From IMG/VR virus record IMGVR_UViG_3300031537_000006, positions 1-35,698 of that record: a DNA stretch of 35,698 nt. One strand, given 5' to 3'. This stretch comes from a virus. How positions within the stretch are numbered: the stretch's first letter is position 1; each line of letters opens with the position of its first letter. The translations under genes and the position numbers were made by a program. Shown piece by piece: positions 6,057 through 35,698 of this stretch. The notes beneath the pieces are model-generated. The model made no database searches. It was not told the origin of the DNA and saw nothing but the letters and a program-made list of their open reading frames with translations.

Positions 6057-6085
6057 CCTGCCAGTTTCCGCTAATTATGGCGGTG

Positions 6086-9272: not shown

Positions 9273-9419
9273 TATGGAAGTAAATAGTAAAAAATTTGAT
9301 GAGCTTTACAAAGAGTGGAGCGGAGAACACCACACGACAAATAGCAACAAGAAAGTGCATGATAGTGCTTAATGTACAGACTTTGCAGAATATTGCCTTA
9401 AATGGGCTGTGAGCAAGGG
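9273..9419 (+). repeat. 147-bp exact direct repeat, copy A
   Basis: This segment is identical base for base to 12658-12804, 3385 bp downstream. It starts with an ATG and spans an in-frame TAA. The flanks differ on both sides. The lack of any substitution points to a recent duplication or ongoing gene conversion. Confidence 0.9.
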
Positions 9420-17797: not shown

Positions 17798-17874
17798 ACT
17801 TTTGATAATTATAAAACATTTCATAACTTAGTATCGTAAAAGATAATATAAGCAACAATTTAAAGCCAAAAAAG
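17798..17874 (+). promoter_or_regulatory. Bacteroidota-type promoter with conserved leader, copy 3 of 5
   Basis: TTTG (17801-17804), a 19-nt spacer and TAACTTAG (17824-17831) form the promoter; the leader ends CAATTTAAAGCC just before an ATG at 17875. It starts the first cargo cassette after TerL. No hairpin terminator is seen between TerL and this promoter. Confidence 0.78.
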
Positions 17875-18404: not shown

Positions 18405-18475
18405 CCAGGGGATGGTTAGCCCGTATCTCTCCGGAGTGCGGGCTTTTATAGGTAGAAACACATAAAAATTATTGA
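18405..18475 (+). promoter_or_regulatory. UCCG-capped hairpin with conserved leader, element 2 of 3
   Basis: CCAGGGGATGG leads into GCCCG (18419-18423), which pairs with CGGGC (18439-18443). Inside, CTC (18427-18429) pairs with GAG (18434-18436) and closes a TCCG tetraloop. TTTTA follows, then GGTAGAAACACATAAAAAT and the ATG at 18478. The left flank is shared with the element at 19003 and the right flank with the element at 6086. Confidence 0.68.
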
Positions 18476-18477
18476 TT

Positions 18478-19002
18478 ATGTTCTTAGATGAAACATTCAG
18501 GGAAGAAATAATACGTCTATGCAAGGAAAACAGCGCTTGCAAGCCAGAATTCAAGAAATTGGTCTCTGCTGAAACCGAGGAAGATTTTTGCAATGTATTG
18601 AAAGATAATTTTCACTGGTGCGTAGAAAACAATGTTGTTACAGAATCTATCGTAACAAAGTACAAGGAAATTTTCAACTGTAATTCTATCTATGGCAATG
18701 AAAATGTAGAAGACGGGTACTTAATAGTAACCGGCAATTCGGAAGTATATGCATATAGCAATTCGGAAGTACATGCCCGAGGCAATTCGGTAGTATATGC
18801 ATATGACAATTCGAAAGTATATACACGAGGCAATTCGAAAGTATATGCTTATGGCAATTCTGAAGTAATTGCCCGAGACAATTCGGTAGTAATTGCCCGA
18901 GGCAATTCGAAAGTATATGCATATGGCAATTCGGAAGTACATGCATATGACAATTCGGAAGTACATGCATATGACAATTCGGAAGTAATAGATTATAGAT
19001 AG
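18478..19002 (+). CDS. Octapeptide-repeat (beta-solenoid-like) protein, copy A
   Basis: This 174-residue protein has two parts. Residues 1-70 form a helical N-terminal domain (ETFREEIIRLCKENSA opening) nearly identical to that of the gene at 35211. From residue 86, eleven copies of an eight-residue unit follow, with consensus GNSxVxAx (for example GNSKVYAY, DNSEVHAY). Regular eight-residue units with alternating V/A and a fixed Asn-Ser suggest a stacked beta-solenoid. No signal peptide or membrane segment is seen. The ATG at 18478 is preceded by a UNCG hairpin element, and the stop is followed at once by another. The function is unknown; a binding or scaffold role is a guess. Confidence 0.7.
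   Translation: MFLDETFREEIIRLCKENSACKPEFKKLVSAETEEDFCNVLKDNFHWCVENNVVTESIVTKYKEIFNCNSIYGNENVEDGYLIVTGNSEVYAYSNSEVHARGNSVVYAYDNSKVYTRGNSKVYAYGNSEVIARDNSVVIARGNSKVYAYGNSEVHAYDNSEVHAYDNSEVIDYR
18733..18996 (+). repeat. 24-bp tandem repeat array (11 units), copy A
   Basis: Eleven 24-bp units in frame with the gene carry a fixed core (gcAATTCGxxAGTA) and variable ends. Unit types are shuffled, and bases 18758-18884 are identical to 35572-35698 in the second array. This fits unit exchange by recombination. Confidence 0.9.
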
Positions 19003-19062
19003 CCAGGGGATGGTTTAGCCCGTATCTCTACGGAGTGCGGGATTTTGGCAGTAGAAATATAA
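19003..19062 (+). promoter_or_regulatory. UACG-capped hairpin with conserved leader, element 3 of 3
   Basis: CCAGGGGATGG is followed by CCCG (19019-19022) paired with CGGG (19038-19041). An inner CTC/GAG stem closes a TACG tetraloop (19029-19032). ATTTT and GGCAGTAGAAA follow. It starts 1 nt after the repeat-protein stop and lies upstream of the gene at 19087. Confidence 0.68.
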
Positions 19063-19086
19063 ATTTAGTTTAACATTCAAAAAATT

Positions 19087-19482
19087 ATGAAAATAAAACT
19101 CCCATCAGGTAGAAAAGCTATTGTAAAAAAAATAAAGATGGTAAATTTAATAAATAGCGAATTAGAAATGAATTTTGCAATAAATGAATCAATTAAAATA
19201 GATAATGAAATTATGAGCATCGTGGATCATCCCAATGACAATCCATTAATAATGATTCCCGAAAAATGGCCAAAAACGGGCCCAATTAACCAAATAAAAC
19301 AACATGATTACATATATCTCGGCGATAAACTTACCGATCCAGAACTGAAAGGAAAGGAGTGTTCAGCAGTCAGGCGCAAGGATGGAAAATGTATCAGAAG
19401 CAATATGGCAACCATGCTCGTGGACTTCGGGGATTGTAAGTGTGTGGTTCTTGCTCGGAGGTTAAGGAAAATTAAACCATAA
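19087..19482 (+). CDS. Hypothetical protein
   Basis: This 131-residue basic protein was not recognised. It opens MKIKLPSGRKAIVKKIKMVN, has a Pro/Trp-containing middle (PEKWPKTGP) and three Cys in its last 45 residues. It follows the third UNCG hairpin element. It is mixed in structure with no membrane segment. Confidence 0.55.
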   Translation: MKIKLPSGRKAIVKKIKMVNLINSELEMNFAINESIKIDNEIMSIVDHPNDNPLIMIPEKWPKTGPINQIKQHDYIYLGDKLTDPELKGKECSAVRRKDGKCIRSNMATMLVDFGDCKCVVLARRLRKIKP

Positions 19483-19486
19483 TATC

Positions 19487-19648
19487 ATGAAAACGAAAAG
19501 ATTTATTGACAGCGACTATTACGAAAACAAAAAAATGTCAAATGAATTATTTCGGTTCATTTTGATTGGATTTATTGTCATTTTATTGATGTTATTTGCA
19601 ATTAAATATGCAAATATCATAGATAAATTAATTCAATCAATTAAATGA
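19487..19648 (+). CDS. Small single-span membrane protein (53 aa)
   Basis: This 53-residue protein has a charged N-terminus (MKTKRFIDSDYYENKKMSNE) and one membrane helix at about residues 21-43. It starts 4 nt after the preceding stop, and its TGA overlaps the next ATG. It is likely an inner-membrane protein of unknown role. Confidence 0.5.
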   Translation: MKTKRFIDSDYYENKKMSNELFRFILIGFIVILLMLFAIKYANIIDKLIQSIK

Positions 19649-19848
19649 TATCTTGGTGTTACACCGGTTTATTTGGATTTCTTATAGCAGATGCCATTAT
19701 TTACACGAGGTACTGGACGGATGTGACTGGAAGCCAATATGGAAATGGAAAACGCATATATCTTGCTTTTATAAGTATATTGCTTGGTTATTTTGCTTTT
19801 ACTGTACATATGTTTATAATTATTTTATGGATAAGCAGAAAATATTAG
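19645..19848 (+). CDS. Small two-span membrane protein (67 aa)
   Basis: This 67-residue protein has two hydrophobic helices (about 5-20 and 38-62) with a charged loop between. The overlap with its upstream membrane-protein neighbour suggests they act together, as in holin pairs or membrane-exclusion proteins. This is inference from layout only. Confidence 0.5.
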   Translation: MISWCYTGLFGFLIADAIIYTRYWTDVTGSQYGNGKRIYLAFISILLGYFAFTVHMFIIILWISRKY

Positions 19849-20186
19849 ACGAAATAGAAACCCTCAAGTATTTAGATGCAACTAATTGGAATTATATTAG
19901 CATCGAGGAGCAAAACTTGAAAAGTAAAGCTATTGTTCTACAAAGCAAACTAAATAAGGCACCATATGATAGAAAATTAATTGACAGTTTTATTAAAGCA
20001 AAAAAAGAATGGTCAATAATTAATGATGTTGTAAAGGCTTACGTCCGTCTCAGGCATCTGCGCATTGAACTTGCAAAATTAGAGGGATTTGATATCCTTA
20101 AGTTGAATCAAGATTTAACAATTCCAGGATATAATCTTGCAACAAATAAGAAATTAAAGAACAACGGGCAATACAATTTATTTTAA
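19827..20186 (+). CDS. Hypothetical helical protein
   Basis: This 119-residue protein begins MDKQKILDEIETLKYL. It is Lys-rich and helical, with a probable coiled coil in the middle (VVKAYVRLRHLRIELAKLEG). The ATG at 19827 overlaps the end of the membrane-protein gene. It was not recognised by family. Confidence 0.55.
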   Translation: MDKQKILDEIETLKYLDATNWNYISIEEQNLKSKAIVLQSKLNKAPYDRKLIDSFIKAKKEWSIINDVVKAYVRLRHLRIELAKLEGFDILKLNQDLTIPGYNLATNKKLKNNGQYNLF

Positions 20187-20188
20187 TA

Positions 20189-20368
20189 TGGAATTATACA
20201 GAATCACAGCATGATATCGATAAAATAAAGCGGTTGATTAAGGAAGAAAACAAAAATGAAATAAAAAAAATATGTCGCATGTTTCTTCCGGAGTATAATC
20301 TCAAAATTGTTGCAAAACTTGATCCTTGGGAAAGGAGTTCATGGATGAATATTGTTGGGTATAATTAA
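20189..20368 (+). pseudogene. Start-less reading frame
   Basis: An open frame encodes WNYTESQHDIDKIKRLIKEE and continues through PEYNLKIVAKLDPWERSSW to TAA (20366-20368), with protein-like composition. The only nearby ATG (20188) is in another frame and stops after eight codons. It looks like a small gene shifted by one base just after its start codon. A TTG inside could start a shorter product. Confidence 0.4.
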
Positions 20369-20382
20369 AATAATTAAAAAAA

Positions 20383-20458
20383 CTTTTGATAATAATGAAA
20401 CATTTTATATCTTAGCTACGTAAAACATTACAAAAGCAACAATTTAAAAGCTAATAAG
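20383..20458 (+). promoter_or_regulatory. Bacteroidota-type promoter with conserved leader, copy 4 of 5
   Basis: TTTG (20385-20388), a 19-nt spacer and TATCTTAG (20408-20415) form the promoter. The leader is slightly different (GTAAAACATTACAAAAGCAA) but ends with the same CAATTTAAAAGC type of sequence before the ATG at 20459. It drives the radical-SAM and ParB-methylase cassette. Confidence 0.78.
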
Positions 20459-20740
20459 ATGAGAACATTAGAATCAAAACAGATTGAAGGAACAATTTCT
20501 GAGAATATCAGATATTTTCAAGTAGACGGAAATACGGTAAAAGCTGTATTTTTGAATGTACAACAGGCACGAGAATATGCAAACAAATTTTTCGACTTTA
20601 ATAATGGAGTTGGATGCAAACATACTCAAAAAGGATTTGCATATTTTACATGGGACTATAAATCGGATTACATTGAAGGGCATAGCACTTATCATAGTAT
20701 ATCAACTATAATAGATATATTTGAAAACGGTAAATTTTAA
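20459..20740 (+). CDS. Hypothetical protein
   Basis: This 93-residue protein was not recognised. It begins MRTLESKQIEGTISENIRYF and appears alpha/beta with many aromatic residues. It is first in the promoter-4 operon, and the radical-SAM gene begins 4 nt after its stop, so a helper role is possible but unsupported. Confidence 0.55.
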   Translation: MRTLESKQIEGTISENIRYFQVDGNTVKAVFLNVQQAREYANKFFDFNNGVGCKHTQKGFAYFTWDYKSDYIEGHSTYHSISTIIDIFENGKF

Positions 20741-20744
20741 GATT

Positions 20745-21521
20745 ATGGCAAATATTTATGAACCTAAAGGAAGGGCAAGGGAGTATTCTCCTCTTGCCCT
20801 TAATTATATAAAAGGATGTGATCACGGATGTTTATATTGTTACGTTCCTACAATGATGAAAAGATTCAATTCTAAATATGTACATAAGAATGTATATTCA
20901 ATTGTTGATTATGATTCTATAAGAAAGACTGCAAAAAAAAATGAAGGGATTGACAAACAGATATTACTTTCATTTACGACAGACCCTTACTCCAAACAAA
21001 TAATCAATCAAACACGTGAAGTATTGAACATATTAAATGAATATAATCATAAAGTCGCGATCTTGTCAAAAGGCGGGAAAAGGATATTACGTGATATTGA
21101 TATTTTTAAAAAATTTGGAGAGAGAATAAAAATAGGGGCTTCATTGACTTTTGATAATAAAAAAGATTCTAAAAAATGGGAATATGGGGCAGCTATTCCA
21201 GATGATAGAATTGAAACGTTAAAAATATTATTTGAACATAATATAAAGACTTGGGTTAGTTTTGAACCGACAATAATTCCTGAACAGACACTAAATTTGA
21301 TAAGTAAAGTTTCAGGATTTGTAGATCATATTAAAATAGGAAAAGTAAATGGATACAATAATATTGATAAGAAAATAGATTGGACTAAATTTCTTGATGA
21401 TGCTGTAAACTTGTGCAGAAAATTAAATATAAGATTTTATATTAAGGAGGATTTACGAAAATTTAACAATGGGACTGTTTTATTTCCGAATGAAATCGAT
21501 ATGGATCATTTTAATTTATAG
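20745..21521 (+). CDS. Radical SAM protein, spore-photoproduct-lyase-like
   Basis: This 258-residue protein has the radical-SAM cluster motif CDHGCLYC at residues 25-32 (CX3CX2C), preceded by ALNYIKG. The following layout resembles the spore photoproduct lyase and DNA-repair-lyase-like branch, with DPYSKQ and a GASLTFD segment. It binds a 4Fe-4S cluster and S-adenosylmethionine to make a radical. The substrate is unknown; nucleic acid is plausible because the next gene, 2 nt away, is a ParB-methyltransferase fusion. The ATG at 20745 was chosen over an upstream TTG. Confidence 0.8.
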   Translation: MANIYEPKGRAREYSPLALNYIKGCDHGCLYCYVPTMMKRFNSKYVHKNVYSIVDYDSIRKTAKKNEGIDKQILLSFTTDPYSKQIINQTREVLNILNEYNHKVAILSKGGKRILRDIDIFKKFGERIKIGASLTFDNKKDSKKWEYGAAIPDDRIETLKILFEHNIKTWVSFEPTIIPEQTLNLISKVSGFVDHIKIGKVNGYNNIDKKIDWTKFLDDAVNLCRKLNIRFYIKEDLRKFNNGTVLFPNEIDMDHFNL

Positions 21522-21523
21522 CA

Positions 21524-22672
21524 ATGAAAAAAGAGATTAAAATTTATAACAAATCGAACCTACCGACAGCTGATTTTGAAATATTTGAGGACTTACAGGA
21601 GGATTTTAAGATCATGGATTTGGACCGGCTTATGTTGCTGAAGAAGGCAATTGTAGAAAGGGGTTTTAAATACAGTTTTAAGGCATGGAAGGATATGGAC
21701 GGGAAACTGTGGATCATAGATGCCCATCGCAGGAAGCAAGCCCTTAAAATGCTCCAGTCCGATGGGTATTACATTGCCCCGATCCCTTATGAACTTATCC
21801 ATGCCGAAACAAAGAAAGAAGCCATCGAAGAGATTGCCTTTGTGAACTCACAGTACTCGGATATAAACCCAGATACAGAACTGTTCAAAAAGTATGAAAT
21901 TAACTTGGAAGATCTGCCTATTTCAATGAAGGAGTTTAATATCAGTTTTGGGGACAGTGCAGATGAAAATGTAATAGATGATGGATTTATAAATCCTGAT
22001 AAAATCAAAACAGATATTAAATATGGAGACATGTTTAAAATAGGTAATCATTTTCTATTATGTGGTGATGCTACAAAAAAAGAAGATTGTGAAAAATTAA
22101 TGCAAGGACTTAAAGCAGATATGATTTTCACCGATCCACCTTATGATTTAGAGGATGATTATTCACATAATATATTTGATATGGCGAAAGAAGACTGTCA
22201 TATATTTATAATGAATTCAGATAAAATTTTAATTAAAAACGTAAATAATGGGATTCAATGGTTTCGTAAATTTTTCGCTGTTGATTTTAGACAAGCAAGA
22301 TTAATAAGTAATAATCAACCGATGACAAGAGTAGATTTAATTGCTGAATTTTGTAAAGGGAAAACAAAATTCAATAATCTTCGTGATGGTTTTTCAACCC
22401 TTATAGAATGTGCGAAGATTCATAATGATAATGAATCTATAAATTTCGGACATAAACAAGCAAAAAAGATAGATCTTCCAGCTAATTTTATAAAGCATTA
22501 TTCAAATGAAAACGAAATAATTATAGATTTATTTGGTGGTTCTGGTTCTACAATGGCCGCATGTGAACAATTGAATAGAAATTGTTATATAATGGAATTT
22601 GAACCAGAAAATTGTCAAATTATAATTGATAGAATGAAAAAATGTTATAATGTAGATTGTATTAAACTATAA
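21524..22672 (+). CDS. ParB-domain / DNA methyltransferase fusion
   Basis: This 382-residue protein joins two domains. Residues 1-145 are a ParB-like domain with DAHRR (66-70). Residues 165-380 are a DNA amino-methyltransferase with DPPY (204-207) and, later, FGGSGS (337-342) as the S-adenosylmethionine site, the beta-type order. It likely methylates adenine N6 or cytosine N4. The ParB part is about 95% identical in DNA to 1-321. The methylase domain has little room for a target recognition region (about residues 215-320), so the ParB domain might help choose DNA. It follows the radical-SAM gene by 2 nt and ends just before a terminator. Confidence 0.85.
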   Translation: MKKEIKIYNKSNLPTADFEIFEDLQEDFKIMDLDRLMLLKKAIVERGFKYSFKAWKDMDGKLWIIDAHRRKQALKMLQSDGYYIAPIPYELIHAETKKEAIEEIAFVNSQYSDINPDTELFKKYEINLEDLPISMKEFNISFGDSADENVIDDGFINPDKIKTDIKYGDMFKIGNHFLLCGDATKKEDCEKLMQGLKADMIFTDPPYDLEDDYSHNIFDMAKEDCHIFIMNSDKILIKNVNNGIQWFRKFFAVDFRQARLISNNQPMTRVDLIAEFCKGKTKFNNLRDGFSTLIECAKIHNDNESINFGHKQAKKIDLPANFIKHYSNENEIIIDLFGGSGSTMAACEQLNRNCYIMEFEPENCQIIIDRMKKCYNVDCIKL

Positions 22673-22695
22673 TTTAACAATCAAATTTAAACATC

Positions 22696-22724
22696 GCCCC
22701 GGTAAAAAGCCGGGGTTTTTTTTT
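22696..22724 (+). terminator. Rho-independent terminator
   Basis: CCCCGG (22697-22702) pairs with CCGGGG (22710-22715) around a 7-nt loop, followed by nine T. It closes the radical-SAM and methylase cassette and isolates it from the structural operon. Confidence 0.88.
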
Positions 22725-22737
22725 GCTTTCATTTTCA

Positions 22738-22746
22738 TAACTTTAG
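22738..22746 (+). promoter_or_regulatory. Possible -7 promoter element before the structural operon
   Basis: TAACTTTAG matches the Bacteroidota -7 pattern. A clean TTTG at the right distance is missing, as the terminator T tract occupies that place. It lies 13 nt before the portal ATG, right after the terminator, so a structural-gene promoter is expected near here. Confidence 0.35.
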
Positions 22747-22758
22747 AAAAAAGATATC

Positions 22759-25224
22759 ATGACATTAACAGATATTTTAGGAAAATTATCGTTTTTAAAG
22801 AAGGGTAAGTCAGAAGGATCGTTTGTTGATAAAAAAACAAAACGTGCGCTTCCGCCTACGACAGGTAGGAGTTCAGTCCCACCAATGTTCAATACATTTG
22901 GGCCAAGCCAGAAATTAGTTGAGGTAATGCCAGATTTTGCTGTAGAATGGTACACAACCCTTGAGAACCTGGCAGCTTATAATCATGATGTTGGTTTTGC
23001 GCTTGATAATATTGTCCAACTTGCGAATACAGATCATGATATAATATTTTCAGAGGATATATCTGATGAATTAAAAAAGCAAATTTTAAGGGAAATTTAT
23101 GATGAAGAAGATAAATGGTATAACTTCTCTGAGGGAATACGTTCATTTAAATCAGACATAATAGCACAGGGAGTAATAAATGGAGCTATAAGTATTGAAA
23201 TTATCCCCGACATTGTTCGAAAAACGATTTATCAGGTTGTAAGAATCCCACCTAAATACATACGGTTTGTTTATGACAGATCACAAGATAAATATTCTTC
23301 TTATCAAATTGTTAATTATCCGCACACAAAAGATACAGATTTTAATGGTTTGGTAAAACTTAACCCATTAACTTATAAATATGTAGCATGGAGGAGATTA
23401 TTTGAAGGGCCATACCCTACACCTCCATTTCTTGCTGCTGTTGAAGGTTTGTTCATTCAGAAGGATATGCTCAAGAATTTTTCAAATATAATGAACAAAC
23501 TCGGTATGCTTGGTTTCCTTTCTGTTAAAGTTGAGCCACCTGAACAGGAAGCCGGTGAAGATGAAACCGCTTATTTTCAAAGATGTGTTACTTATTTGGA
23601 AGATGTCGTTTATCCGCAATTAAACAAAAACCTATCCAATGGGGTGGTCGCTGGTTTCAAAGATTCTCATGAATTTGAACTACAGGGTAATAAAATGAAT
23701 GTATCTGGGGCTTCTGATCTAATGAAAATTGTAGAGTTAATTGTTTTCTCAGGATTAAAACAAGACCCTAATATGCTCGGACGAAATTACTCAACCACTG
23801 AAACTTTCGGGCGGGTTATCCTTGCCAAAATGTTAAACCAGATAAAGGACTGGCAGAAAATGTCTGATTCTATATTTAAGGAAATTTATAAAATGTTCCT
23901 TCTTGTCCGGGGTTACGATCCTAATATAATTACAGATGTAATTAGTGAACCTCCAACTGTTATGGATAAAACAAAGGAAGAAGAAGCTGAAAACAAGAAA
24001 ATCCTCAACGTCAAAGAAAAACGAAACATGGGTATTATCAATCAACAGGATGCTGCTAATGAATTAGGTTATGAAGAGCCAGCAGAAGAAGATTGGCAAA
24101 TTTTAAACCCAATGAACGATCCAAATAATGGAAAAAGCGATCCGGATTCATCAAAAAGCGATCCAAAATCACCCGAAAACGAACCGAAAAGTGATAATGA
24201 GGTAAGAAATGAGATCAAAGCGTTGGAAGTGGCATTAAAAAAACACGTTCCAGAGTTCCAGTATGAAACCCATGAATGTCATGGAGTCCATACCACAGAT
24301 TTTGTTACCCCATCAGATTTCAATGATAGGGAAATGAACAAACTGGTTAATAAATACTTCAATGATACGGTTCAGAATTATAGAAGGGCAATTGTTAAAG
24401 TTTCCAAGATAGTGGCTAACCTTTTTAAAAATTATGGTGAGGCAACCGGCATCGATCGCATCAAAGAGGATGTTTACCTCGCTATTTTAAGAAATTGGGA
24501 GGATCAATTCATTGCCAAACAAAACACCACGTCAGCAGATAATATTGAAAAGATTTATTCTTACTTCAGAAAGGATAAAAAGGTTTTCGGAAACAAAACC
24601 CATTTTTCAAAACAAGCTGGACAATTCGCTGAAGGGGATCCGATCCCTGAAGCTACATTCGATCTATTAGATTTTAGGACTATTGATTATTTATCGGATA
24701 GCGATTCGCTTTATTTGGGTAAATTCATAACCGATGAATCAACAAAGAAAAAAATCGAAAAGTATCTGGAAGAAAAATACATCGCCGGTGATCTTCCCCT
24801 TGGAAATGATCCTAAGGTTTTAAATAAGTTCCAGAATGAATTCGAAAAAGTTTTGAACCTTGAGACTTGGAAAATTCGCCGGGTTATCGATACGACTGTT
24901 AATAACGCCAGAAATGATGCCAATGTAATGTACATGAATCAAGCGAACATTGAAAAATATGAGATTATTGAGATTGTTGATCAACTGACATGTGACTGGT
25001 GCGCTTATATGAACGGAATGGAATTTTCAATTAACAATGCAGTTTCAAAAATACAGAACAAGGTAGATGTCGGCCCTGAAAATGTAAGTTTGATTTCACC
25101 TTTTGCGACTTCCATTCCTATCGAAGATTTTAAGAAATTAAGTGATGCGGAAATACAAGGAAAGAACATCACAACCCCAAGTTATCATCCATCGTGCCGG
25201 GGAAGAACTGTGGCGGTGATTTAA
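22759..25224 (+). CDS. Portal protein fused to MuF-type head morphogenesis domain
   Basis: This 821-residue protein combines two usually separate head proteins. Residues 1 to about 430 are portal-like, forming the dodecameric ring that TerL docks on. A Ser/Pro/Asp-rich linker lies near 455-480. The C-terminal part (from about 490) ends in a SPP1 gp7/Mu gpF-type domain with IRRVIDTTVNNARNDANVM, CDWC (745-748) and HPSCRG (810-815). MuF-type proteins enter the head in small numbers and help assembly or go with the DNA. The fusion is continuous, with no stop or shift. It is the first gene after the terminator. Confidence 0.88.
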   Translation: MTLTDILGKLSFLKKGKSEGSFVDKKTKRALPPTTGRSSVPPMFNTFGPSQKLVEVMPDFAVEWYTTLENLAAYNHDVGFALDNIVQLANTDHDIIFSEDISDELKKQILREIYDEEDKWYNFSEGIRSFKSDIIAQGVINGAISIEIIPDIVRKTIYQVVRIPPKYIRFVYDRSQDKYSSYQIVNYPHTKDTDFNGLVKLNPLTYKYVAWRRLFEGPYPTPPFLAAVEGLFIQKDMLKNFSNIMNKLGMLGFLSVKVEPPEQEAGEDETAYFQRCVTYLEDVVYPQLNKNLSNGVVAGFKDSHEFELQGNKMNVSGASDLMKIVELIVFSGLKQDPNMLGRNYSTTETFGRVILAKMLNQIKDWQKMSDSIFKEIYKMFLLVRGYDPNIITDVISEPPTVMDKTKEEEAENKKILNVKEKRNMGIINQQDAANELGYEEPAEEDWQILNPMNDPNNGKSDPDSSKSDPKSPENEPKSDNEVRNEIKALEVALKKHVPEFQYETHECHGVHTTDFVTPSDFNDREMNKLVNKYFNDTVQNYRRAIVKVSKIVANLFKNYGEATGIDRIKEDVYLAILRNWEDQFIAKQNTTSADNIEKIYSYFRKDKKVFGNKTHFSKQAGQFAEGDPIPEATFDLLDFRTIDYLSDSDSLYLGKFITDESTKKKIEKYLEEKYIAGDLPLGNDPKVLNKFQNEFEKVLNLETWKIRRVIDTTVNNARNDANVMYMNQANIEKYEIIEIVDQLTCDWCAYMNGMEFSINNAVSKIQNKVDVGPENVSLISPFATSIPIEDFKKLSDAEIQGKNITTPSYHPSCRGRTVAVI

Positions 25225-25275
25225 ATTCGTATATTTATAACAAATGATTAAATTATAATTTAAACTTTTCGGAAA

Positions 25276-26787: not shown

Positions 26788-26817
26788 TTAGTTGTATAAC
26801 TTTTAAAAATCAATAAA

Positions 26818-27963: not shown

Positions 27964-27995
27964 CCCCATATTTTAAATATTAAAAATGACTAAAA

Positions 27996-29312
27996 ATGAA
28001 GAAAGTAACAGTTGAAGAATTTCAAAAACTGAGAGTTCATAACCAGAATGTTATGGCGAAAACTTCCGGCACACTGGATAAAAAAGACGTGCGGGATATG
28101 TATGAACGCTCAATGGACGCTTTTGTTAATCAGATAGTCCAGACTAGGATGGGGAGGTTACAGGACACATATGGCAGGAATATTGCCCCTTATGATGTTT
28201 CAATGGATGAAGCCCTGAAAGTTTTTTATGGGGTTGATATGTTTACCTATATGAAACAGATGGATATACACATGGGGACTGATACCCTTGCCTCTGCTGC
28301 TAAAAGGTTCGGAAATGATAACCTGACAAACTTTGGTTTAACCGGGTTGCTGGTTAAGCATTCAGAATTTGACGGTTTGAATAGTACGGGCGATATAAAC
28401 ACAGCCCATAGGTTTATTATACCTGAATTAATCATGTCGGCTATCCGTACCGATTATGAACATAGTTCAATGTATACTAATTGGATCGCAACTGAGCAGA
28501 ATATTACTGGGATGAAAATAACTATGCCATTGATTTTACGTGGTGCCGCTACTCCAAGGAAGATCAGGCAAGGTGAAAGTATACCTTTTGGTACTGTTCG
28601 ATTCGGGCAAAAAGAAGCAACTGTTTATAAAATTGGTATTGGTTTCAAAATCACTGATGAACTTGTTGAACAAAGTTCGTTAAATATGTTGTTTAACTTT
28701 TTGGGAGAAGTTGGAACAGATATGTCAATAGGCGCAGATGTTGAAGCAATTAATACCCTTATAAATGGTGAGCAATCTGATGCTTCAGAAAGCGCGCCTG
28801 TTATAGGTGTAGGATCAACGGTTACAGGATTCACATATAAGGACTTGAAACGCATTGTCGCACGTATGGAGCGTCTAAAGAGAAACGTGACACGTGCTAT
28901 AACTGGCGAAGATGATGGACTTGATATTGCATTGCTTGAGCAATTTAAAGGTTTTGCAGGTGATACAAAACTTGGCAACATAAATGGTATTATGGCAAAA
29001 GTTTTAAGCCTAGCTAACGATATATGGGTCATGCCTTCTAATCAAGTTATGCTCCTTGATCCTACAAAAGCAATGGCGAAACTTAAGTACCGTGGAATGA
29101 AAACTGAAACCAGGAGAAACCCACAAAACCAGGAAGAAGAATTGTTTGTTTCTGATCATATTGGTTTTGCTATACTCAGAAGGGATGCGCGTGTTATACT
29201 TGATAAATCTGTTGCTTATAATTCAACTGCTGGAGAAACAGGCGGGTTTCCAACGTATATGGATGTTGATTCACGTATCGATAACGCATTCAAAAACTTA
29301 CAAGGTAGTTAA
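27996..29312 (+). CDS. Major capsid protein, HK97 fold
   Basis: This 438-residue protein is in the capsid position and has HK97-type features: a helical N-terminal arm (about 1-110, likely cut by the protease or acting as scaffold), then a conserved-looking core. EATVYKIGIGFKITDELVEQ would correspond to the spine helix and P-domain region, and MPSNQVMLLDPTKAM and LRRDARVILDKSV to the later A-domain. It forms the icosahedral shell. Context makes this assignment firm even though individual motifs are weak. Confidence 0.82.
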   Translation: MKKVTVEEFQKLRVHNQNVMAKTSGTLDKKDVRDMYERSMDAFVNQIVQTRMGRLQDTYGRNIAPYDVSMDEALKVFYGVDMFTYMKQMDIHMGTDTLASAAKRFGNDNLTNFGLTGLLVKHSEFDGLNSTGDINTAHRFIIPELIMSAIRTDYEHSSMYTNWIATEQNITGMKITMPLILRGAATPRKIRQGESIPFGTVRFGQKEATVYKIGIGFKITDELVEQSSLNMLFNFLGEVGTDMSIGADVEAINTLINGEQSDASESAPVIGVGSTVTGFTYKDLKRIVARMERLKRNVTRAITGEDDGLDIALLEQFKGFAGDTKLGNINGIMAKVLSLANDIWVMPSNQVMLLDPTKAMAKLKYRGMKTETRRNPQNQEEELFVSDHIGFAILRRDARVILDKSVAYNSTAGETGGFPTYMDVDSRIDNAFKNLQGS

Positions 29313-29314
29313 TT

Positions 29315-29992
29315 ATGGGAGAAATATATATCAAACTAAAAGACAAGACTTCCACATATTGGCTCGCTGAGCAGGGTGTAAGCCTTATTGGAGAAATTCC
29401 TAAGAGAGTAGAAAAAACTGCTTTTGTTTCAAAGCTCCTGAAAAATGGTGTGGCAGAAACTGTATCAGATGAATTTGCTAAAAAATATCTTCTTTCTGAT
29501 GAAGAAAAAATAAAAGCGTTTCAATATAAAGAAGATGAGCTTAAATTTAAGGATCAAATTGAAGCCATAGACAATAAAATAAAATCTGGTGAATTAATAC
29601 TTGCAAAACAATTAATTGAAAAGGCTAAAATTGATTTGATGTCTTTTGGGCCTCAATTTATCGATGAAAACGGACATTTATTGACTGATGTTAAAATAAA
29701 ATTAAAAGATAAAAAAGATTTAGTTGATAAAGAATTGGGTGAAATTGAACATATAAAATCATTGATTGAAGGAGCTATTCAGGCAAAGATCATAGTACTT
29801 AATTCAAATGGTTATTCAATTGATGGTAAAGTCGTGGCGGAGACTGAGGATTCTATGATTGGATACCTTTTAAAATCCAAGAAAAACAGAATAGAAATCG
29901 AAACAAAAGTCAATGATTATGTGAAGCATACAGAAGCAGGTACCAGTAAAGGCAATAGCGAAACAAAAAATCCTGCGAGGGGTAAAAAATAA
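29315..29992 (+). CDS. Structural-module protein of unknown function
   Basis: This 225-residue protein starts 2 nt after the capsid gene. It has a short beta-like N-terminus and long Lys/Glu-rich helical stretches, and ends in a flexible basic tail (KGNSETKNPARGKK). It was not recognised. Its position before the terminator suggests a head or head-tail joining role. Confidence 0.6.
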   Translation: MGEIYIKLKDKTSTYWLAEQGVSLIGEIPKRVEKTAFVSKLLKNGVAETVSDEFAKKYLLSDEEKIKAFQYKEDELKFKDQIEAIDNKIKSGELILAKQLIEKAKIDLMSFGPQFIDENGHLLTDVKIKLKDKKDLVDKELGEIEHIKSLIEGAIQAKIIVLNSNGYSIDGKVVAETEDSMIGYLLKSKKNRIEIETKVNDYVKHTEAGTSKGNSETKNPARGKK

Positions 29993-30010
29993 CATTTCAT
30001 TAATAATTAA

Positions 30011-30044
30011 AAAAAGCCTACAGGACACCTTGTGGGCTTTTTTT
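30011..30044 (+). terminator. Rho-independent terminator after capsid operon
   Basis: AAAAAGCCTACAGG pairs with CCTTGTGGGCTTTTT in a 14-bp stem with a 3-nt loop and two G-U pairs, ending in a T tract. It divides head genes from neck and tail genes and may be bidirectional. Confidence 0.85.
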
Positions 30045-30060
30045 GTAAAAATTTAAATTT

Positions 30061-30555
30061 ATGGCACTTCAAAGCGTAGAAGAATTAGTAAAGGAGCGAC
30101 TGGCTTTTGTCCCGGCTACCGGTTGGGAAACTAAAATAGAAAGCTATAAACTCCAGATGTATTATTTCCTTCAGAAGTATCTCAATATTGCCGATGCCGA
30201 TGTAGAAGTGGATGAAACTTACACCGGGCTTAATCGCATGCTCGTGAAAGAACTAGTGGTATATAATATGATTGTTGAAAAGGCAATTACTACCACCGGG
30301 GGAAGCTCATCCTCATCTGCGCCAGGAGAAGGTTCAAAAAGGATTAAAAAAGCAAAAGCGGACGTGGTAGAGGCTGAGTTCGATTATGCAAAAGCAAGCG
30401 ATGGAACATCCATTGCCTTGGAGGCTGAAAAGTTAATCCCTGAACTGAAAAAAAACATTTGCTCTTATTCCAGGACCCTTGGATTCGGGTTGCCTGAGTT
30501 TTGTCCTGATAAGAAATTATTAAAACCAGCTTTTATAAGCTTTGTACCTGAATAA
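30061..30555 (+). CDS. Head-tail connector (adaptor) protein
   Basis: This 164-residue protein is the first gene after the capsid-operon terminator. It is helical with a Ser/Gly linker (GGSSSSSAPGEGS) in the middle. Size and place, right before a stopper-like and an HK97-gp10-like gene, fit a neck adaptor that sits beneath the portal. No decisive motif was seen. Confidence 0.55.
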   Translation: MALQSVEELVKERLAFVPATGWETKIESYKLQMYYFLQKYLNIADADVEVDETYTGLNRMLVKELVVYNMIVEKAITTTGGSSSSSAPGEGSKRIKKAKADVVEAEFDYAKASDGTSIALEAEKLIPELKKNICSYSRTLGFGLPEFCPDKKLLKPAFISFVPE

Positions 30556-30557
30556 TT

Positions 30558-31010
30558 ATGGCTAAATTTTTAACAGATCAAGACTTTGCGGACATACGAT
30601 CCGCAATTAACGATACAATTGAAACATTCGCACAGCTGCAAGTTACATACAAAAAAAATCAAAAACGGACACGTTCCCGTTTCAATAGAGAATTAACCGA
30701 TAATCAGGTTTTTGATGATTTTACACTTAACGTACTTCAGGTTTGGGAGAAAAATGAAAAGGGGATGTCACAGGTTGACAAAAAAGGGAAGTGGGATTTT
30801 TCCGAGGGTTATCTGCTCACCGGATTCGATTCGATTGAAACACTGAACCTGGTTGATGGAAACGGTAACCTAACAATGGATCAAAATGTTGATAAATTGT
30901 TAATAAGAGGAATAGAATATGAGGTAATGGGGATTATTACCTTAGGACAATTAAAGGATAAAGATTGTCTGGTTAAAATCCAGTTTAAAAAGTTGCTTAA
31001 AAATGAGTAA
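30558..31010 (+). CDS. Head-closure (stopper)-like protein
   Basis: This 150-residue protein starts 2 nt after the adaptor-like gene. It has a helical N-terminus and a beta-rich second half (GYLLTGFDSIETLNLVDGNG). Position between adaptor and gp10-like genes fits the head-closure ring, which seals DNA in the head. It overlaps the next gene by 8 bp. Confidence 0.5.
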   Translation: MAKFLTDQDFADIRSAINDTIETFAQLQVTYKKNQKRTRSRFNRELTDNQVFDDFTLNVLQVWEKNEKGMSQVDKKGKWDFSEGYLLTGFDSIETLNLVDGNGNLTMDQNVDKLLIRGIEYEVMGIITLGQLKDKDCLVKIQFKKLLKNE

Positions 31011-31506
31011 AAATATACATAGATTTGGTGATTGGGATAAAGCATCTAAGCTTGCACAGAATTTGCATAAAGAAATAAATGATGCGAATAGAATAGCTTT
31101 ACAAAAAGTAGGTTTAAAAACAGAAAGAGAAGTTGTTAAATATATCCAAAGTCAACCATCTGATTGGCCTTCTCTGGATGAAAATTATCTCAAAAGAAAG
31201 GAAAGGCAGGGGGATAGCAATTTGATGCTTCGAAAGTCTGGTACTTATATAAATTCAATCAGGAGTTCAGTGATAGCCCCATTAAGTAAAGTGTTTGTTG
31301 GTGTTAAAAAAGAAGCTGTCAGTGATGATGGTGAAGTTTTGGCTAACATAGGCAAAACATTGGAGTATGGAAGCGAGAAAATGAATATACCACCAAGACC
31401 ACATTTCGGGCCTGTAAAAAAAAATATGTTAAAAAAAATTCGCGAAGAAGGTCTTTTTACTAAATATTTGAATGAAGCATTAAAACGTAAATACGGTTTA
31501 AAATGA
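31003..31506 (+). CDS. HK97 gp10-like tail/neck protein
   Basis: This 167-residue protein has the gp10-type ending: TLEYGSEKMNIPPRPHFGP (about 128-146) followed by a helix. The N-terminal helices (LAQNLHKEINDANRIALQKV) also match. HK97 gp10-like proteins belong to the neck or tail-completion group. It overlaps both neighbours (8 bp and 4 bp). Confidence 0.78.
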   Translation: MSKNIHRFGDWDKASKLAQNLHKEINDANRIALQKVGLKTEREVVKYIQSQPSDWPSLDENYLKRKERQGDSNLMLRKSGTYINSIRSSVIAPLSKVFVGVKKEAVSDDGEVLANIGKTLEYGSEKMNIPPRPHFGPVKKNMLKKIREEGLFTKYLNEALKRKYGLK

Positions 31507-32171
31507 AATTGACTTTAAAACAAATTGAAAATGGTATTTCTGAGGCGATAAGGCTTCGGATTGTCGCAGCTGGATATATTCCTGATGTAACTGATTATGC
31601 AACAAATGAACTGTACCAAGCCGCTAGGGACACAATAAAAAATTCAGGTAAAGAGATAATAGAGTGTTTTATTGGGGGAAGTTACAAGAGCAATGAAGAT
31701 GTAAAAAATAATGACATAATAATAAGTAGAAGTGATAAGTCCCCTGCAAAAACAGGGACAATACCAACATTGCAATATGAAAAAGTAGAAGGGGTTCCTG
31801 AATACACAAAAAAGAAAACTACAGAAGGGTTTTTCGATCTGACTTATAAAGTTACATATATATGCTATAATGAAAATTATGCGGATATTATTGAAACTAT
31901 TATACATGAAGCACTTGGTGTAAGGAGGATATTAAATGCACTGAATGATGATGCAACTGTGGCTGGCACATTCAGGTTTGAATATAAAAATTTTGTTGAT
32001 TTGAGTTCAAAAGATTTTATTGAAAGGGCTTATTATTTTAAATCAACTAATATCGATTTATTTGGGGATGAAATATTCGACAATGTTCCAGAAATGAGTG
32101 ACTTTAATTTTGATCCAGTACCATCTGATAATGAAACAATACAAGACGTAGATAATTTCATTGAAAACTAA
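31503..32171 (+). CDS. Tail terminator/completion-like protein
   Basis: This 222-residue protein lies between the gp10-like gene and the sheath, where the tail terminator is expected. It has alternating strands in the middle (FFDLTYKVTYICYNENYADI) and an acidic C-terminal tail (about 195-222). It likely caps the tail tube and joins it to the neck. The call rests on position, not motifs. Confidence 0.5.
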   Translation: MKLTLKQIENGISEAIRLRIVAAGYIPDVTDYATNELYQAARDTIKNSGKEIIECFIGGSYKSNEDVKNNDIIISRSDKSPAKTGTIPTLQYEKVEGVPEYTKKKTTEGFFDLTYKVTYICYNENYADIIETIIHEALGVRRILNALNDDATVAGTFRFEYKNFVDLSSKDFIERAYYFKSTNIDLFGDEIFDNVPEMSDFNFDPVPSDNETIQDVDNFIEN

Positions 32172-32186
32172 AAAAATGTATCTTTA
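32156..32186 (+). promoter_or_regulatory. Possible promoter before tail sheath gene
   Basis: TTTC (32156-32159), a 19-nt spacer and TATCTTTA (32179-32186) fit the same pattern as the five strong promoters, with a weaker -33 element. It sits about 40 nt before the sheath ATG. Confidence 0.35.
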
Positions 32187-32223
32187 CAAAAAGAGTATTT
32201 TTTAAACATTAAAAAAATGGAAA

Positions 32224-34170
32224 ATGGCACAAGAATTATCAGGAGCACCCGGTGTGAAATTATCGGTTACCGACCTCTCAATAATCATAGCTAACTCCTT
32301 AAAAGGAATTAACTGTGTCCAATTGGTCACAAAAAGAGGAGAACCTGGAAAACAATATTTAATTGGGAACTGGAACGAGTTTAAACGGAAACTTGGTGGA
32401 TTAATAACAGGTGTTGATGATCCTCTTATTGCGAAAGCCGCACTCGATGGTGGGGCAGTCTTAAGGGTAACAAGGGCATTCCATTATACCGATATTGACG
32501 ATCTTGATACGGTTGATGGCAACAAGGCTACTGGATCAATAGCAGGAACTGTTACCGAAACGCTTGCAGTTGGTAGTTTCGATGTTTTAGGGGGTTCAGA
32601 AAGTGCTGGGGTTAACCGGGTAACTTCAATTACTGTGAATGGGGTTGAAATTTTGTATACAGCGGTTGATTTCGATACCGATAACGCCACAACTGCAATA
32701 GCGATTGCTTCCCGGATTACCAGTTACAACTCAACCCCTGAATATACAGGTGCTGCGGTTGGCAATAAAATAAACATTACAGCAGTTGCAGGTTCTGGAG
32801 CAACTCCTAATGGTTTTGTGGTTGTGGTCACAACTGAAGGCGATGTGGTCGTGGGAAATGAAACAAACATGGCTGGTGGTGTAACTGCTGGAGCCGTAAG
32901 TTTGCAAATGATCGCTGAGGCTGTTGGTTCAGGTTACAATGGTGCTAAAATTACAACTTCAGCAGCTAAATCAGGCATCACAACCAATGTGGATTTAAAG
33001 GTTGAGCTTCCTGATTCCGATTTGGTTATTGAATTATTTGACATTGATAAAACTGATGCATCAGCTACAGCCGTAACCGCTTTAAATAGCCGTTTGAAAG
33101 GTAAAGAAGCAGGGGTTCGTGTTTCAGCAATCAATGGTTCGATCCCTATTGGTTCAATTTCATTAACCGGTGGATCTCAGACAGTTGCTTCAATAGTAAC
33201 AGCCGATTTTAATGGTTCATCAATTTCAAAAGCTGGATGGCATGCTTTTGATGATGTTACTGATTCAATGAGGGTTTGGAACTTCAACAAAGCAATCCCA
33301 GAAGTTGACATATATCTTGCCAATTACGTGGCAACCAGACAAGACATGAGGGCACATTTAAGGACCCAGGCTGGTTTAACTGCTACGGGAGTTTATGATT
33401 ATAGAATGGGTACCGGTACTTTCTCACATCAACCAATTGATACATTATATGCTTCGATGTGGTACACTGATGCAGAAATAACAGATCCTGATAATCCTGA
33501 AATAAAGGATAAGGATATTACTGCAATAGGGCATTATTGTGGGGCAAGGGCAAGGATGGATCGCAAGCTTGGGGAATGGTTCTCAGCGGCAGGAGATTTC
33601 GGAGGAAAACTTACCGGTATAAACAGGATGAAGTTGAATTTCGGATCACCTGGTAATAAAGCTTCATTTGATAATGTTTATGAGGCAGGTGTTAATTCTA
33701 TTATTGAACATCCAACTTTTAAGATCACCGCTTGGGGAAACCGTTCATGTTTGCTGAATAAAACTAAACTTACCAGTAAGGATAACATCGCCGACATGAT
33801 TGTATTCATTTCGAGGGTGGTTAAAGGAATTGCTGAAGCAATGAGTTTCCGTCCGAATGATTTTATCATGTTCAACCTGTTATACAGGAGCGTTCGTCCA
33901 TTTATTACTGACACTTTGGTTGCTAACCGTGCAATTCAGGGAGATAAAACACCAACTGCTGGAGAAGGAAAGTGGTGGCACTGGCTTGGTGATCAATTTG
34001 CCACTACCCCTGAAGAATTGAGTTTTAATACCCAATCTGACATCGATGTTGGAAAATATAGGGTTCGTTTTGCTTTTAAACCGATTGCTTCGAACGAATA
34101 CATCGCCATCGATATTGCCCCGGCTGATTCGGCAACTATTTTGAATGTTCAAATATTAAATCAAATTTAA
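32224..34170 (+). CDS. Contractile tail sheath protein
   Basis: This 648-residue protein is a myovirus-type sheath. The N-terminal domain opens SGAPGVKLSVTDLS, and the C-terminal conserved part ends with DIDVGKYRVRFAFKPIASNE and a final strand (SATILNVQIL). Between about residues 95 and 330 is a large Gly/Thr/Val-rich insert (TSITVNGVEILYTAVDF, VVVVTTEGDVVVGNETNM), probably a domain exposed on the outside of the sheath. It polymerises around the tube and contracts to drive it through the host envelope. It shows that this phage is a myovirus. Confidence 0.85.
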   Translation: MAQELSGAPGVKLSVTDLSIIIANSLKGINCVQLVTKRGEPGKQYLIGNWNEFKRKLGGLITGVDDPLIAKAALDGGAVLRVTRAFHYTDIDDLDTVDGNKATGSIAGTVTETLAVGSFDVLGGSESAGVNRVTSITVNGVEILYTAVDFDTDNATTAIAIASRITSYNSTPEYTGAAVGNKINITAVAGSGATPNGFVVVVTTEGDVVVGNETNMAGGVTAGAVSLQMIAEAVGSGYNGAKITTSAAKSGITTNVDLKVELPDSDLVIELFDIDKTDASATAVTALNSRLKGKEAGVRVSAINGSIPIGSISLTGGSQTVASIVTADFNGSSISKAGWHAFDDVTDSMRVWNFNKAIPEVDIYLANYVATRQDMRAHLRTQAGLTATGVYDYRMGTGTFSHQPIDTLYASMWYTDAEITDPDNPEIKDKDITAIGHYCGARARMDRKLGEWFSAAGDFGGKLTGINRMKLNFGSPGNKASFDNVYEAGVNSIIEHPTFKITAWGNRSCLLNKTKLTSKDNIADMIVFISRVVKGIAEAMSFRPNDFIMFNLLYRSVRPFITDTLVANRAIQGDKTPTAGEGKWWHWLGDQFATTPEELSFNTQSDIDVGKYRVRFAFKPIASNEYIAIDIAPADSATILNVQILNQI

Positions 34171-34180
34171 AATATAAGTC

Positions 34181-34624
34181 ATGGCTGTAAACAATCCAGT
34201 AAAAAATTATGATTTTGCCCTTGAGATTGACGGGGTAAACCAAGCATACCTACAAGGTGTAACAAAACCTACTGTGGAGTTGACCGAACATAAACAAGGT
34301 ACTGCTGGCAATAACCCGGATGTTAAAACACCCGGAAAGAAGAAAGTTGGCGATCTGGTATGTGAACAAGTAGTACCAGCAGAAACTGGCGATCCAGAAA
34401 TTTGGGCATGGCTCGAAACTGGTAGGACAGGATTAAGGCCAGCATACACTAAAATCGGGTATCTGGTTGAACATAATGGAGTAGGTACCCCTGTTCAGCG
34501 TTGGTTCTTAAAAAATATATGGGTGAAGAAAATTGAAGATTCTGGGCATGATACCAGGGAGGACAATTCAGCCGACATGATGAGGACTGTAACATTCAGC
34601 GTTGAGGATTTTATTCCTGCATAA
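34181..34624 (+). CDS. Tail tube protein
   Basis: This 147-residue protein starts 10 nt after the sheath gene. Length, start (MAVNNPVKNYDFALEIDGVN) and beta-rich pattern with VTFSVEDF at the end fit contractile-tail tube proteins (T4 gp19-like). Hexamers stack to form the inner tube inside the sheath. It ends with an acidic turn. Confidence 0.75.
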   Translation: MAVNNPVKNYDFALEIDGVNQAYLQGVTKPTVELTEHKQGTAGNNPDVKTPGKKKVGDLVCEQVVPAETGDPEIWAWLETGRTGLRPAYTKIGYLVEHNGVGTPVQRWFLKNIWVKKIEDSGHDTREDNSADMMRTVTFSVEDFIPA

Positions 34625-34658
34625 TTAACATTTTTATTAATACTTTAATATTAACATC

Positions 34659-35042
34659 ATGAGTGAAAAATTAGGCATTGAGAACTTAAAAAAAGCTTGT
34701 ATCACCCTTATAAATACTGGTGAAAAATTTGATCAGGCTTTGGAAGACGGCAAAGTAACTGGAATGGAAGCATTAACCATTACCGTTTCATCTGCATCCG
34801 GGTTTATTGGAATCGCCAAAAAAGGTAAGGCCATTCTGGCTGAGTTTAAAGATTTGGACGATGATGAACGTACTGAGTTGTTGAATTATGTCGCTTTAGA
34901 GCTAGACTTAAGAAGTGATTATATCGAAAAGAAAATCGAAGCCGGTTTTAATGTTGCCATTGCTGTTGGGGAATTTTTGGAAATCAAAAAAGAAGATTTC
35001 GAAGTTCAGGAGTCAAAAGACTCCGATAATACTAAAAATTAG
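34659..35042 (+). CDS. Tail-region hypothetical protein
   Basis: This 127-residue acidic protein was not recognised. It is helical with an Ala/Gly/Ile-rich middle (SSASGFIGIAKKGKAILAEF). In this place after the tube gene, phages often have a tail assembly chaperone, but no frameshift site was confirmed. A terminator follows its stop. Confidence 0.5.
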   Translation: MSEKLGIENLKKACITLINTGEKFDQALEDGKVTGMEALTITVSSASGFIGIAKKGKAILAEFKDLDDDERTELLNYVALELDLRSDYIEKKIEAGFNVAIAVGEFLEIKKEDFEVQESKDSDNTKN

Positions 35043-35086
35043 CTTCTTAAGTTCGTTGTTTGTGGTGAAACAACTCTCTTGGTGTG

Positions 35087-35119
35087 ATCCCTGCCTTTAT
35101 AGGTAGGGATTCTTTTTTT
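35087..35119 (+). terminator. Rho-independent terminator
   Basis: ATCCCTGCC (35087-35095) pairs with GGTAGGGAT (35102-35110) across a 6-nt loop (one G-U pair), followed by TCTTTTTTT. It closes the tail operon before the repeat-protein cassette. Confidence 0.85.
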
Positions 35120-35133
35120 ATAAAAAACATAAA

Positions 35134-35207
35134 AACTTTTGATAATTGTGAAACATTTATTATCTTAGATGTGTAAAAGAAAATATAAGCAACAATAAAA
35201 AATTAGC
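35134..35207 (+). promoter_or_regulatory. Bacteroidota-type promoter with conserved leader, copy 5 of 5
   Basis: TTTG (35138-35141), a 19-nt spacer and TATCTTAG (35161-35168) form the promoter. The leader is nearly identical to copy 1, with one base difference (GTG for GCG) over about 66 nt. It drives the second repeat-protein gene, inserted as an independent cassette within the tail module. Confidence 0.8.
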
Positions 35208-35210
35208 GAA

Positions 35211-35698
35211 ATGGAAACATACGAAACATTCAGGGAAGAAATAGTCAATCTATGCAAGGAAAACAGTGCTGAAAAATCAGAATTTAAGAAATTGGTCTCT
35301 GCTGAAACCGAGGAAGGTTTTTGCAATGTATTGAAAGATAATTTTAACTGGTGCACAGAAAACAACGTTGTTACAGAGCATACTGTAACAAAGTACAAAG
35401 AAATTTTCAACCGTAATTCTATCTATGACAATTCGAAAGTATATACACGATACAATTCGAAAGTATATGTTATAGGCAATTCGAAAGTATTTGCCCGAGG
35501 CAATTCGGTAGTATTTGCTACAGGCAATTCGAAAGTATATACACGAGGCAATTCGAAAGTATATGCTTATGGCAATTCGGAAGTACATGCCCGAGGCAAT
35601 TCGGTAGTATATGCATATGACAATTCGAAAGTATATACACGAGGCAATTCGAAAGTATATGCTTATGGCAATTCTGAAGTAATTGCCCGAGACAATTC
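35211..35698 (+). CDS. Octapeptide-repeat protein, copy B, 3' truncated by window edge
   Basis: The frame is open to the last base, so the C-terminus is missing. At least 162 residues are seen. Residues 1-70 (METYETFREEIVNLCKENSA) match the N-terminal domain of the gene at 18478, with only scattered changes. Eleven complete octapeptides (GNSxVxAx) and part of a twelfth follow from residue 73. It has its own promoter (copy 5) where copy A has a UNCG hairpin element, so the two loci differ in control. Its place after the tail tube suggests a moron-type insertion. Confidence 0.75.
   Translation, partial: METYETFREEIVNLCKENSAEKSEFKKLVSAETEEGFCNVLKDNFNWCTENNVVTEHTVTKYKEIFNRNSIYDNSKVYTRYNSKVYVIGNSKVFARGNSVVFATGNSKVYTRGNSKVYAYGNSEVHARGNSVVYAYDNSKVYTRGNSKVYAYGNSEVIARDN
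35427..35698 (+). repeat. 24-bp tandem repeat array, copy B (cut by window edge)
   Basis: Eleven complete 24-bp units and part of a twelfth run in frame. Unit types recur in blocks. Bases 35572-35698 are identical to 18758-18884, and the base just before differs. Confidence 0.9.

Follow-up and report, generated by a model that had tools for sequence, protein, structure and literature searches.

Paralogous octapeptide-repeat genes with a uniform unit framework and rapid unit turnover in a phage contig

The window analysed here is the whole of the IMG/VR record IMGVR_UViG_3300031537_000006, exactly 35,698 bases of viral DNA. It contains two genes, copy A and copy B, that share a helical N-terminal domain of about 70 residues followed by in-frame 24-bp units encoding the octapeptide x-N-S-x-V-x-A-x (GNSxVxAx). 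The units of these arrays appear to have been exchanged between the two loci and have been replaced much faster than the domain that precedes them. The explanation that we favour, and consider probable as a whole, is that the two genes are paralogous accessory ('moron') copies with continuing unit turnover whose product may act as a host-directed scaffold. Anatomy and turnover make up its firm part, which we regard as very likely; a function in binding a host factor from the cytoplasm is proposed only tentatively. The parts of the two genes are as follows.

18478-19002, + strand: copy A, complete octapeptide-repeat gene of 174 amino acids (ATG at 18478, stop at 19000-19002)
18478-18732, + strand: N-terminal region of copy A, helical domain (residues 1-68) and linker up to residue 85
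18733-18999, + strand: array of copy A, 11 complete 24-bp units and then the last codon
35211-35698, + strand: copy B, octapeptide-repeat gene, 162 codons before the contig end cuts off the remainder
35427-35698, + strand: array of copy B, 11 complete 24-bp units up to the contig end, with a 96-bp (4-unit) higher-order repeat

A reading made from the sequence alone had described two genes with a nearly identical N-terminal domain and 24-bp in-frame units. The open reading frames (ORFs), the alignment, the period found by Tandem Repeats Finder and the unit lists all agree with the shared domain and the units. The domain is less alike than that reading had it: A and B are 79% identical in amino acids (residues 5-80) and 88% identical in DNA, with a synonymous divergence (dS) of 0.26. 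Tandem Repeats Finder gave the 24-bp period in both copies and additional periods of 48 and 96 bp in copy B, where the similarity of units at lag 4 was equalled in none of 2000 shuffles. Copy A ends with EVIDYR. No hydrophobic signal segment was found in the proteins of the two copies. The array of A carries a net charge of -6 and that of B a net charge of +8; DNA mimicry of the kind known from pentapeptide proteins is disfavoured by these opposite charges, which leave no constant acidic surface.

Three more copies are present in one related contig, the 46-kb IMG/VR contig IMGVR_UViG_3300031364_000005. Two of them lie in tandem (L005: 5246-5986 and 6001-6504) after a DnaB-like helicase and small genes, and the third (L006: 4024-4809) lies between TerL and portal; the names DnaB, TerL and portal on this contig were assigned by reading, not by a family search. 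Unit analysis covered 74 units from the five arrays, which hold 10 to 22 complete units each. Codon 2 is AAT in 72 of the 74 units, codon 3 is TCG in 72 and codon 5 is GTA in all 74, so that the same codon was used in 218 of 222 cases. Unit positions 1, 4, 6 and 8 vary, each among a small set of alternatives. At codons 2, 3 and 5 a single silent change was seen (TCT, common to A and B), and by a rough estimate tens would be expected under independent evolution. The N-terminal domains differ at a dS of 0.2-0.5 in most pairs of copies (0.013 for the pair R2 and R3). The near-absence of silent change in the framework, set against this divergence, indicates that the units were turned over much faster than the domain.

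The same units also trace exchange between the loci. A and B have four unit types in common, and the two phages have not one complete unit in common; the nearest neighbour of a unit outside its own array falls in the same phage in 73% of cases, compared with 47% expected. Mean unit similarity is 0.79 within an array, 0.78 within a phage and 0.77 between phages; since these means barely differ, the strong signal lies in identical units and not in averages. The longest run common to A and B is four consecutive whole units without a difference, a length that was reached in 2 of 20,000 shuffles of unit order. The exchange or turnover of units between loci proposed from the sequence alone is therefore supported, by the relatives as well. 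Arrays also differ between the related phages and are not identical in all of them, a comparison that involves one close relative. Within units, the variable codons are mostly unlinked, the adjacent codons 7 and 8 being the exception; all four combinations are present at 98 of the 207 nucleotide site pairs. These unlinked sites fit either recombination inside units or recurrent change. In other genomes the same kind of frozen framework is found with its own codons, and the arrays of a Bacteroides metagenome-assembled genome (MAG; L010), Porphyromonas phage 005b (L034) and a Spirosoma MAG (L011) have far fewer unit types.

The pattern of variation inside the codons resembles at first that left by a diversity-generating retroelement. 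The variable codons differ chiefly at bases 1 and 2 and have a nearly fixed third base (NNT, NNC), as in AAY-templated variation. However, the adenines of the framework (AAT, GTA and the third base of AAA/GAA) are invariant, although template adenines should vary, and no reverse transcriptase (RVT_1) was found in the window or in the related contig, both of which may be incomplete. We rejected mutation of the outward codons by a retroelement on these two grounds and regard it as scarcely credible.

Two identical blocks link the arrays of A and B.

18758-18884 = 35572-35698, + strand: 127-bp block, identical between copy A and copy B; its B side stops on the last base of the contig
18807-18860 (A) = 35525-35578 = 35621-35674 (both B), + strand: 54-bp block; its first occurrence in B is independent of the contig end

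The 127-bp block had been presented as the only stretch in which the two arrays agree. The second block shows that it is not the only one, and the length of the first, exactly the last 127 bases of the contig, has to be read as a lower limit. The largest k in a published metaSPAdes recipe of the Joint Genome Institute is 127 (PMC10604447), and the link of this record to that k is presumed. Most likely the contig breaks off at a point where a repeat interrupted the assembly graph. When assembly breaks off within a repeat, the final k-mer of the contig is also present in the other copy; the 127 bp are thus a minimum, and the rest of B is missing. The block does exist in B, and its observed length was set by the assembly.

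At the 5' end of the contig, bases 1-125 are identical to 21635-21759, inside a methyltransferase gene (start 21524) with a ParB-like N-terminus, a label given by reading and by overlap with PHROG 498. Together with the block in copy B, this repeat places both contig ends in internal repeats. The first ORF (1-546) has the ParB-like region of the methyltransferase gene and then diverges, making a second gene pair with a common N-terminal domain. An exact direct repeat of 147 bp was also seen (9273-9419 and 12658-12804); it covers the start of a short ORF (MEVNSKKFDELYKEWSGEHH...), after which the sequences differ.

An assembly artefact had been named as a possible objection, and it touches the length of the block, not its existence. 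In its strongest form, a chimera of copy A would account for the common block and the second array together, in keeping with a block that ends exactly at the contig end with the assembler's k length and with the 125-bp internal repeat at the opposite end. Copy B nevertheless has its own N-terminal domain, 88% identical to that of A, and a unique first half of its array; the 54-bp block does not depend on the contig end, and the related contig has its three copies independently. We consider such a chimera highly improbable.

In BLASTP comparisons, TerL and portal of the window are unrelated to those of the 46-kb contig. At the DNA level, compared over about 23 kb at the two ends of that contig (L005, L006, L012 and L013), the matches consist of promoters, terminators, a 739-bp accessory block and the octapeptide genes only. 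This sharing of regulatory elements and octapeptide genes between phages with unrelated TerL and portal makes the genes look like mobile accessory cassettes. The elements and neighbouring genes in the window are the following.

16142-17782, + strand: terminase large subunit (TerL), near copy A (PHROG 2, E 2e-23)
17800-17858, + strand: promoter-like element upstream of the small genes that precede copy A
18405-18447, + strand: terminator-like hairpin directly upstream of copy A
19003-19047, + strand: hairpin directly downstream of copy A, near-identical to 18405-18447
22759-25224, + strand: portal protein, near copy A
32224-34170, + strand: tail sheath, near copy B
34181-34624, + strand: tail tube, gp19-like, near copy B
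35086-35120, + strand: terminator-like hairpin and T-run between the gene at 34659 and copy B (z -3.2 for 35060-35120)
35138-35196, + strand: promoter-like element of copy B, almost identical to an element at 1745, with further copies at about 5335, 17800 and 20367

Copy A is located between the TerL and portal genes; the genes ahead of copy B encode the tail sheath and the tail tube, with one further small, unassigned gene (34659). Both placements agree with the sequence-only reading, which had put A near TerL and B among tail genes with its own promoter; B has its own upstream terminator as well. The promoter-like element of B, judged by reading, agrees with the Bacteroidota promoter TTTG-N19-TAnnTTTG except for one mismatch. 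The nearest such element to copy A lies about 0.6 kb upstream, ahead of other small genes. Elements of this family precede small genes in the window and also occur in the related contig (L006:2760-2859 and L005:3750-3846), and their near-identity possibly reflects a phage-wide regulon. The hairpins that flank copy A belong to a dispersed terminator element that ends near GGTAGAA and stands 3' of several accessory genes in both phages (window 18405-18447 and 19003-19047; L006:3096-3148 and 4800-4883; L005:4121-4208). An integron-like cassette was considered for these hairpins and dismissed: no attC core was seen by eye, and the hairpins read as terminators. The 739-bp block is 81% identical between window positions 5386-6124 and L005:4191-4916, near the octapeptide genes in L005, and represents another common accessory cassette. 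Also outside the structural modules are genes for a protein like phosphoadenosine phosphosulfate reductase (PHROG 2302; 4173-5303) and for a radical SAM protein (20721-21521).

The position of copy B corresponds to the interval between the tail-tube region and the expected site of the tape measure. L039 has a homologous tail tube, and there the tape measure comes next, with no octapeptide gene at that position; in the viral contig L046 an octapeptide relative lies between a tail-chaperone-like gene and the tape measure. An own or nearby promoter and terminator, insertion between late genes and presence or absence among related phages, the features of a moron, were thus all found.

More distant relatives with the same N-terminal domain are the Bacteroides and Spirosoma MAGs, Porphyromonas phage 005b and two viral contigs (L045 and L046). 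The proteins of A and B show the two family characters, a DNFxWC-type helical N-terminal domain and then an x-[NS]-[SA]-x-V-x-A-x array. An extra C-terminal domain (ECxLSDxAIxR...DELKFE) occurs in L010 and L034 and is absent from copy A and from the L005/L006 copies; the end of copy B is cut by the contig, and we treat this domain as optional and not as defining the family. In L045 (5986-6534) the same N-terminal domain precedes ten-residue units of the type GSSSATIKTL, suggesting a changeable unit length in the family. In actinobacterial phages and plasmids the repeat stands behind other N-termini. Searches of 395 genomes from the phylum to which L010 and L011 belong yielded only a small number of true relatives, and several of the matches were unrelated low-complexity repeats. 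A match in a Klebsiella plasmid (H11) was discarded, the annotated protein there being an unrelated short repeat (MEIWKYGN). Nothing relevant on an octapeptide-repeat family was found in the literature.

AlphaFold2 predicted six short helices followed by one strand per unit, forming a beta-solenoid. The mean predicted local distance difference test score (pLDDT) was 81 for B and 85.6 for A, with values of 92-97 over most of the A array and of about 82-97 over most of the array overall. The modelled strands cover unit positions 4-7 or 4-8. V5 and A7 would lie on one side and positions 4, 6 and 8 on the other; the side of V5 and A7 is taken as the core on the grounds that V and A are invariant and hydrophobic. 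Strand lengths in the B model alternate with a period of 16 residues, and units an even number of steps apart are more alike (P 0.002 for B, 0.0065 for all arrays and 0.067 without B), which is only suggestive of two units per coil. The variable beta-solenoid surface proposed earlier thus finds agreement in the predicted fold and in the inward/outward pattern, with the bias of AlphaFold2 described below as a caveat, provided that surface means the outward face of the protein. A location on the virion or cell surface has no support, with relatives sitting in replication, head and tail regions.

Taken together, we propose that A and B are paralogous copies of a moron gene of Bacteroidota phages. 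Each cassette would comprise its own or a nearby promoter, a ribosome-binding region, the gene and a terminator, and would sit in gaps between late genes. The protein would consist of a small helical domain and a beta-solenoid with one short strand per octapeptide, in which V5 and A7 face the interior, the turn is made by N2-S3, and the outward side carries residues 4, 6 and 8 together with the turn residue 1. Recombination or slippage on the 24-bp framework, which is nearly identical from unit to unit, would add and remove units and swap them inside one array as well as from one copy to another; the core would remain uniform while the combinations of outward residues keep changing. Such a protein may serve as a cytoplasmic scaffold that binds a variable host factor during infection, for example in anti-defence or host takeover.

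In favour of this proposal, the proportion of replacement differences (pN) is 0.45 at outward positions and that of silent differences (pS) is 0.19 unit-wide, a ratio of 2.3 (bootstrap 2.0-2.7); at codons 2, 3 and 5 pN is 0.008. Several points weigh against it. On recombining repeats such a ratio is only indicative, and the replacement excess becomes modest when the fewest events are counted. AlphaFold2 gives confident but unrealistic solenoids for near-perfect repeats (PMC11795689); the repeat that follows the same domain in L046 is diverged, which hints at a fold that would also form from imperfect repeats. Searching the PDB with the models of A and B returned nothing significant, with no E below 0.24, and the best matches among viral models were uncharacterised phage proteins. 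PADLOC gave no match for the copies in the window, a result that says nothing about inhibitors, and no relative with a known function was found. The libraries Pfam, NCBIfam, PHROGs and PADLOC assigned no function, and no domain in them explains the N-terminus. A DNA pattern scan of IMG/VR recovered only IMGVR_UViG_3300031364_000005 as a related contig, so that the comparison of arrays between close relatives covers two phages.

The main alternative to a host-directed scaffold is a neutral turnover of the solenoid, in which slippage and recombination lengthen the arrays and make them uniform and the outward residues vary because they are unconstrained. Turnover by itself would lead one to expect frozen codons and duplicated units, variation falls on positions that the core does not require, and the distant relatives L010, L034 and L011 have low-diversity arrays in which the same kinds of position vary. 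Against this stand the excess of outward pN over pS and the restricted choice of outward residues (E/K/V; Y/H/I/F/S/R) with a nearly fixed third base, which relaxed constraint alone does not favour. We regard neutral shuffling as possible, though not as the likelier account.

Another alternative is a virion part, namely an intertwined trimeric segment of a needle or fibre like the octapeptide helix of T4 gp5, with B as a member of the tail module. The repeat region has similarity to PHROG 430, a gp5-like baseplate hub (E 4e-5 for copy B), a profile match links it to the baseplate spike 9f4a in the PDB (E 0.0016), the gp5 repeat VxGxxxxx also has a period of 8 residues (PMC4576200), and copy B lies among tail genes. 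Yet V-x-G does not appear in that form, V-x-A taking its place, and no lysozyme or OB domain was found in A or B by Pfam and PHROG searches. A terminator and a promoter of its own set copy B apart, and the genomic sites of relatives include replication or early regions (L005, L034), positions beside head genes (L045) and the interval between terL and portal (A, L006). Paralog lengths differ twofold, and AlphaFold2 models a solenoid of the monomer, the only form modelled. A structural role is not supported, and we judge it unlikely. The likeness to the C-terminal helix of T4 gp5 extends to the 8-residue period, the beta-helical form and the weak profile match, whereas that helix is trimeric, belongs to a lysozyme-bearing virion spike and repeats VxGxxxxx in place of the GNSxVxAx of A and B, in which no such domains were found.

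Closer counterparts are found among unnamed phage proteins. Porphyromonas phage 005b XAW31785.1 and Mycobacterium phage Squirty gp51 are built from the same octapeptide unit, in which V and A are fixed and the variability lies among positions 1, 4, 6 and 8. The N-terminal domain, too, is present in the Porphyromonas protein (28% identity), whereas Squirty gp51 has another N-terminus; the Bacteroides and Porphyromonas proteins differ by the extra C-terminal domain. CrAss-like ctyM420 A0A8S5TJI7 matches by predicted fold only (E 3e-4). Unlike in the window, unit types are few in L010, L034 and L011, and no case of several copies exchanging units was seen among these counterparts. The YdcK repeat (Pfam PF18836, B_solenoid_ydck) is likewise a short-repeat beta-solenoid, and the L010 repeat exceeds its cut-off (44.5 vs 30 bits); A and B have no match to it, and its model has 17 positions and belongs to another protein architecture. 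Bacterial ice nucleation proteins, 16-residue beta-solenoids, resemble the arrays in being modelled, in PMC9418140, as tandem-repeat solenoids with columns of outward residues, and the 16-residue alternation of strand lengths in the B model adds to this likeness. They differ in that no such family appears among the Pfam matches, and here the outward residues are variable instead of TxT in a small phage protein with a helical N-terminus.

On the practical side, when a shared block reaches the end of a contig and is as long as the assembler's k, its length is best taken as a minimum. Octapeptide-repeat proteins without an assigned function are found in the phages of several bacterial phyla, and the genes described here are a multi-copy, fast-turnover form of this unnamed and already widespread kind of phage repeat protein. 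In this phage lineage they take the form of multi-copy mobile cassettes, with a frozen core and outward residues that turn over fast. A further reading, which we think rather doubtful, is that they encode a combinatorial recognition protein, whose outward residues would be recombined on a frozen solenoid framework at sub-unit resolution among the paralogous moron copies of one genome. If this were true, the phage would possess a system for producing new binders against host factors that is driven by recombination and not by a retroelement. If the outward diversity is selected, these proteins would be candidates for recombination-based recognition on the phage side.

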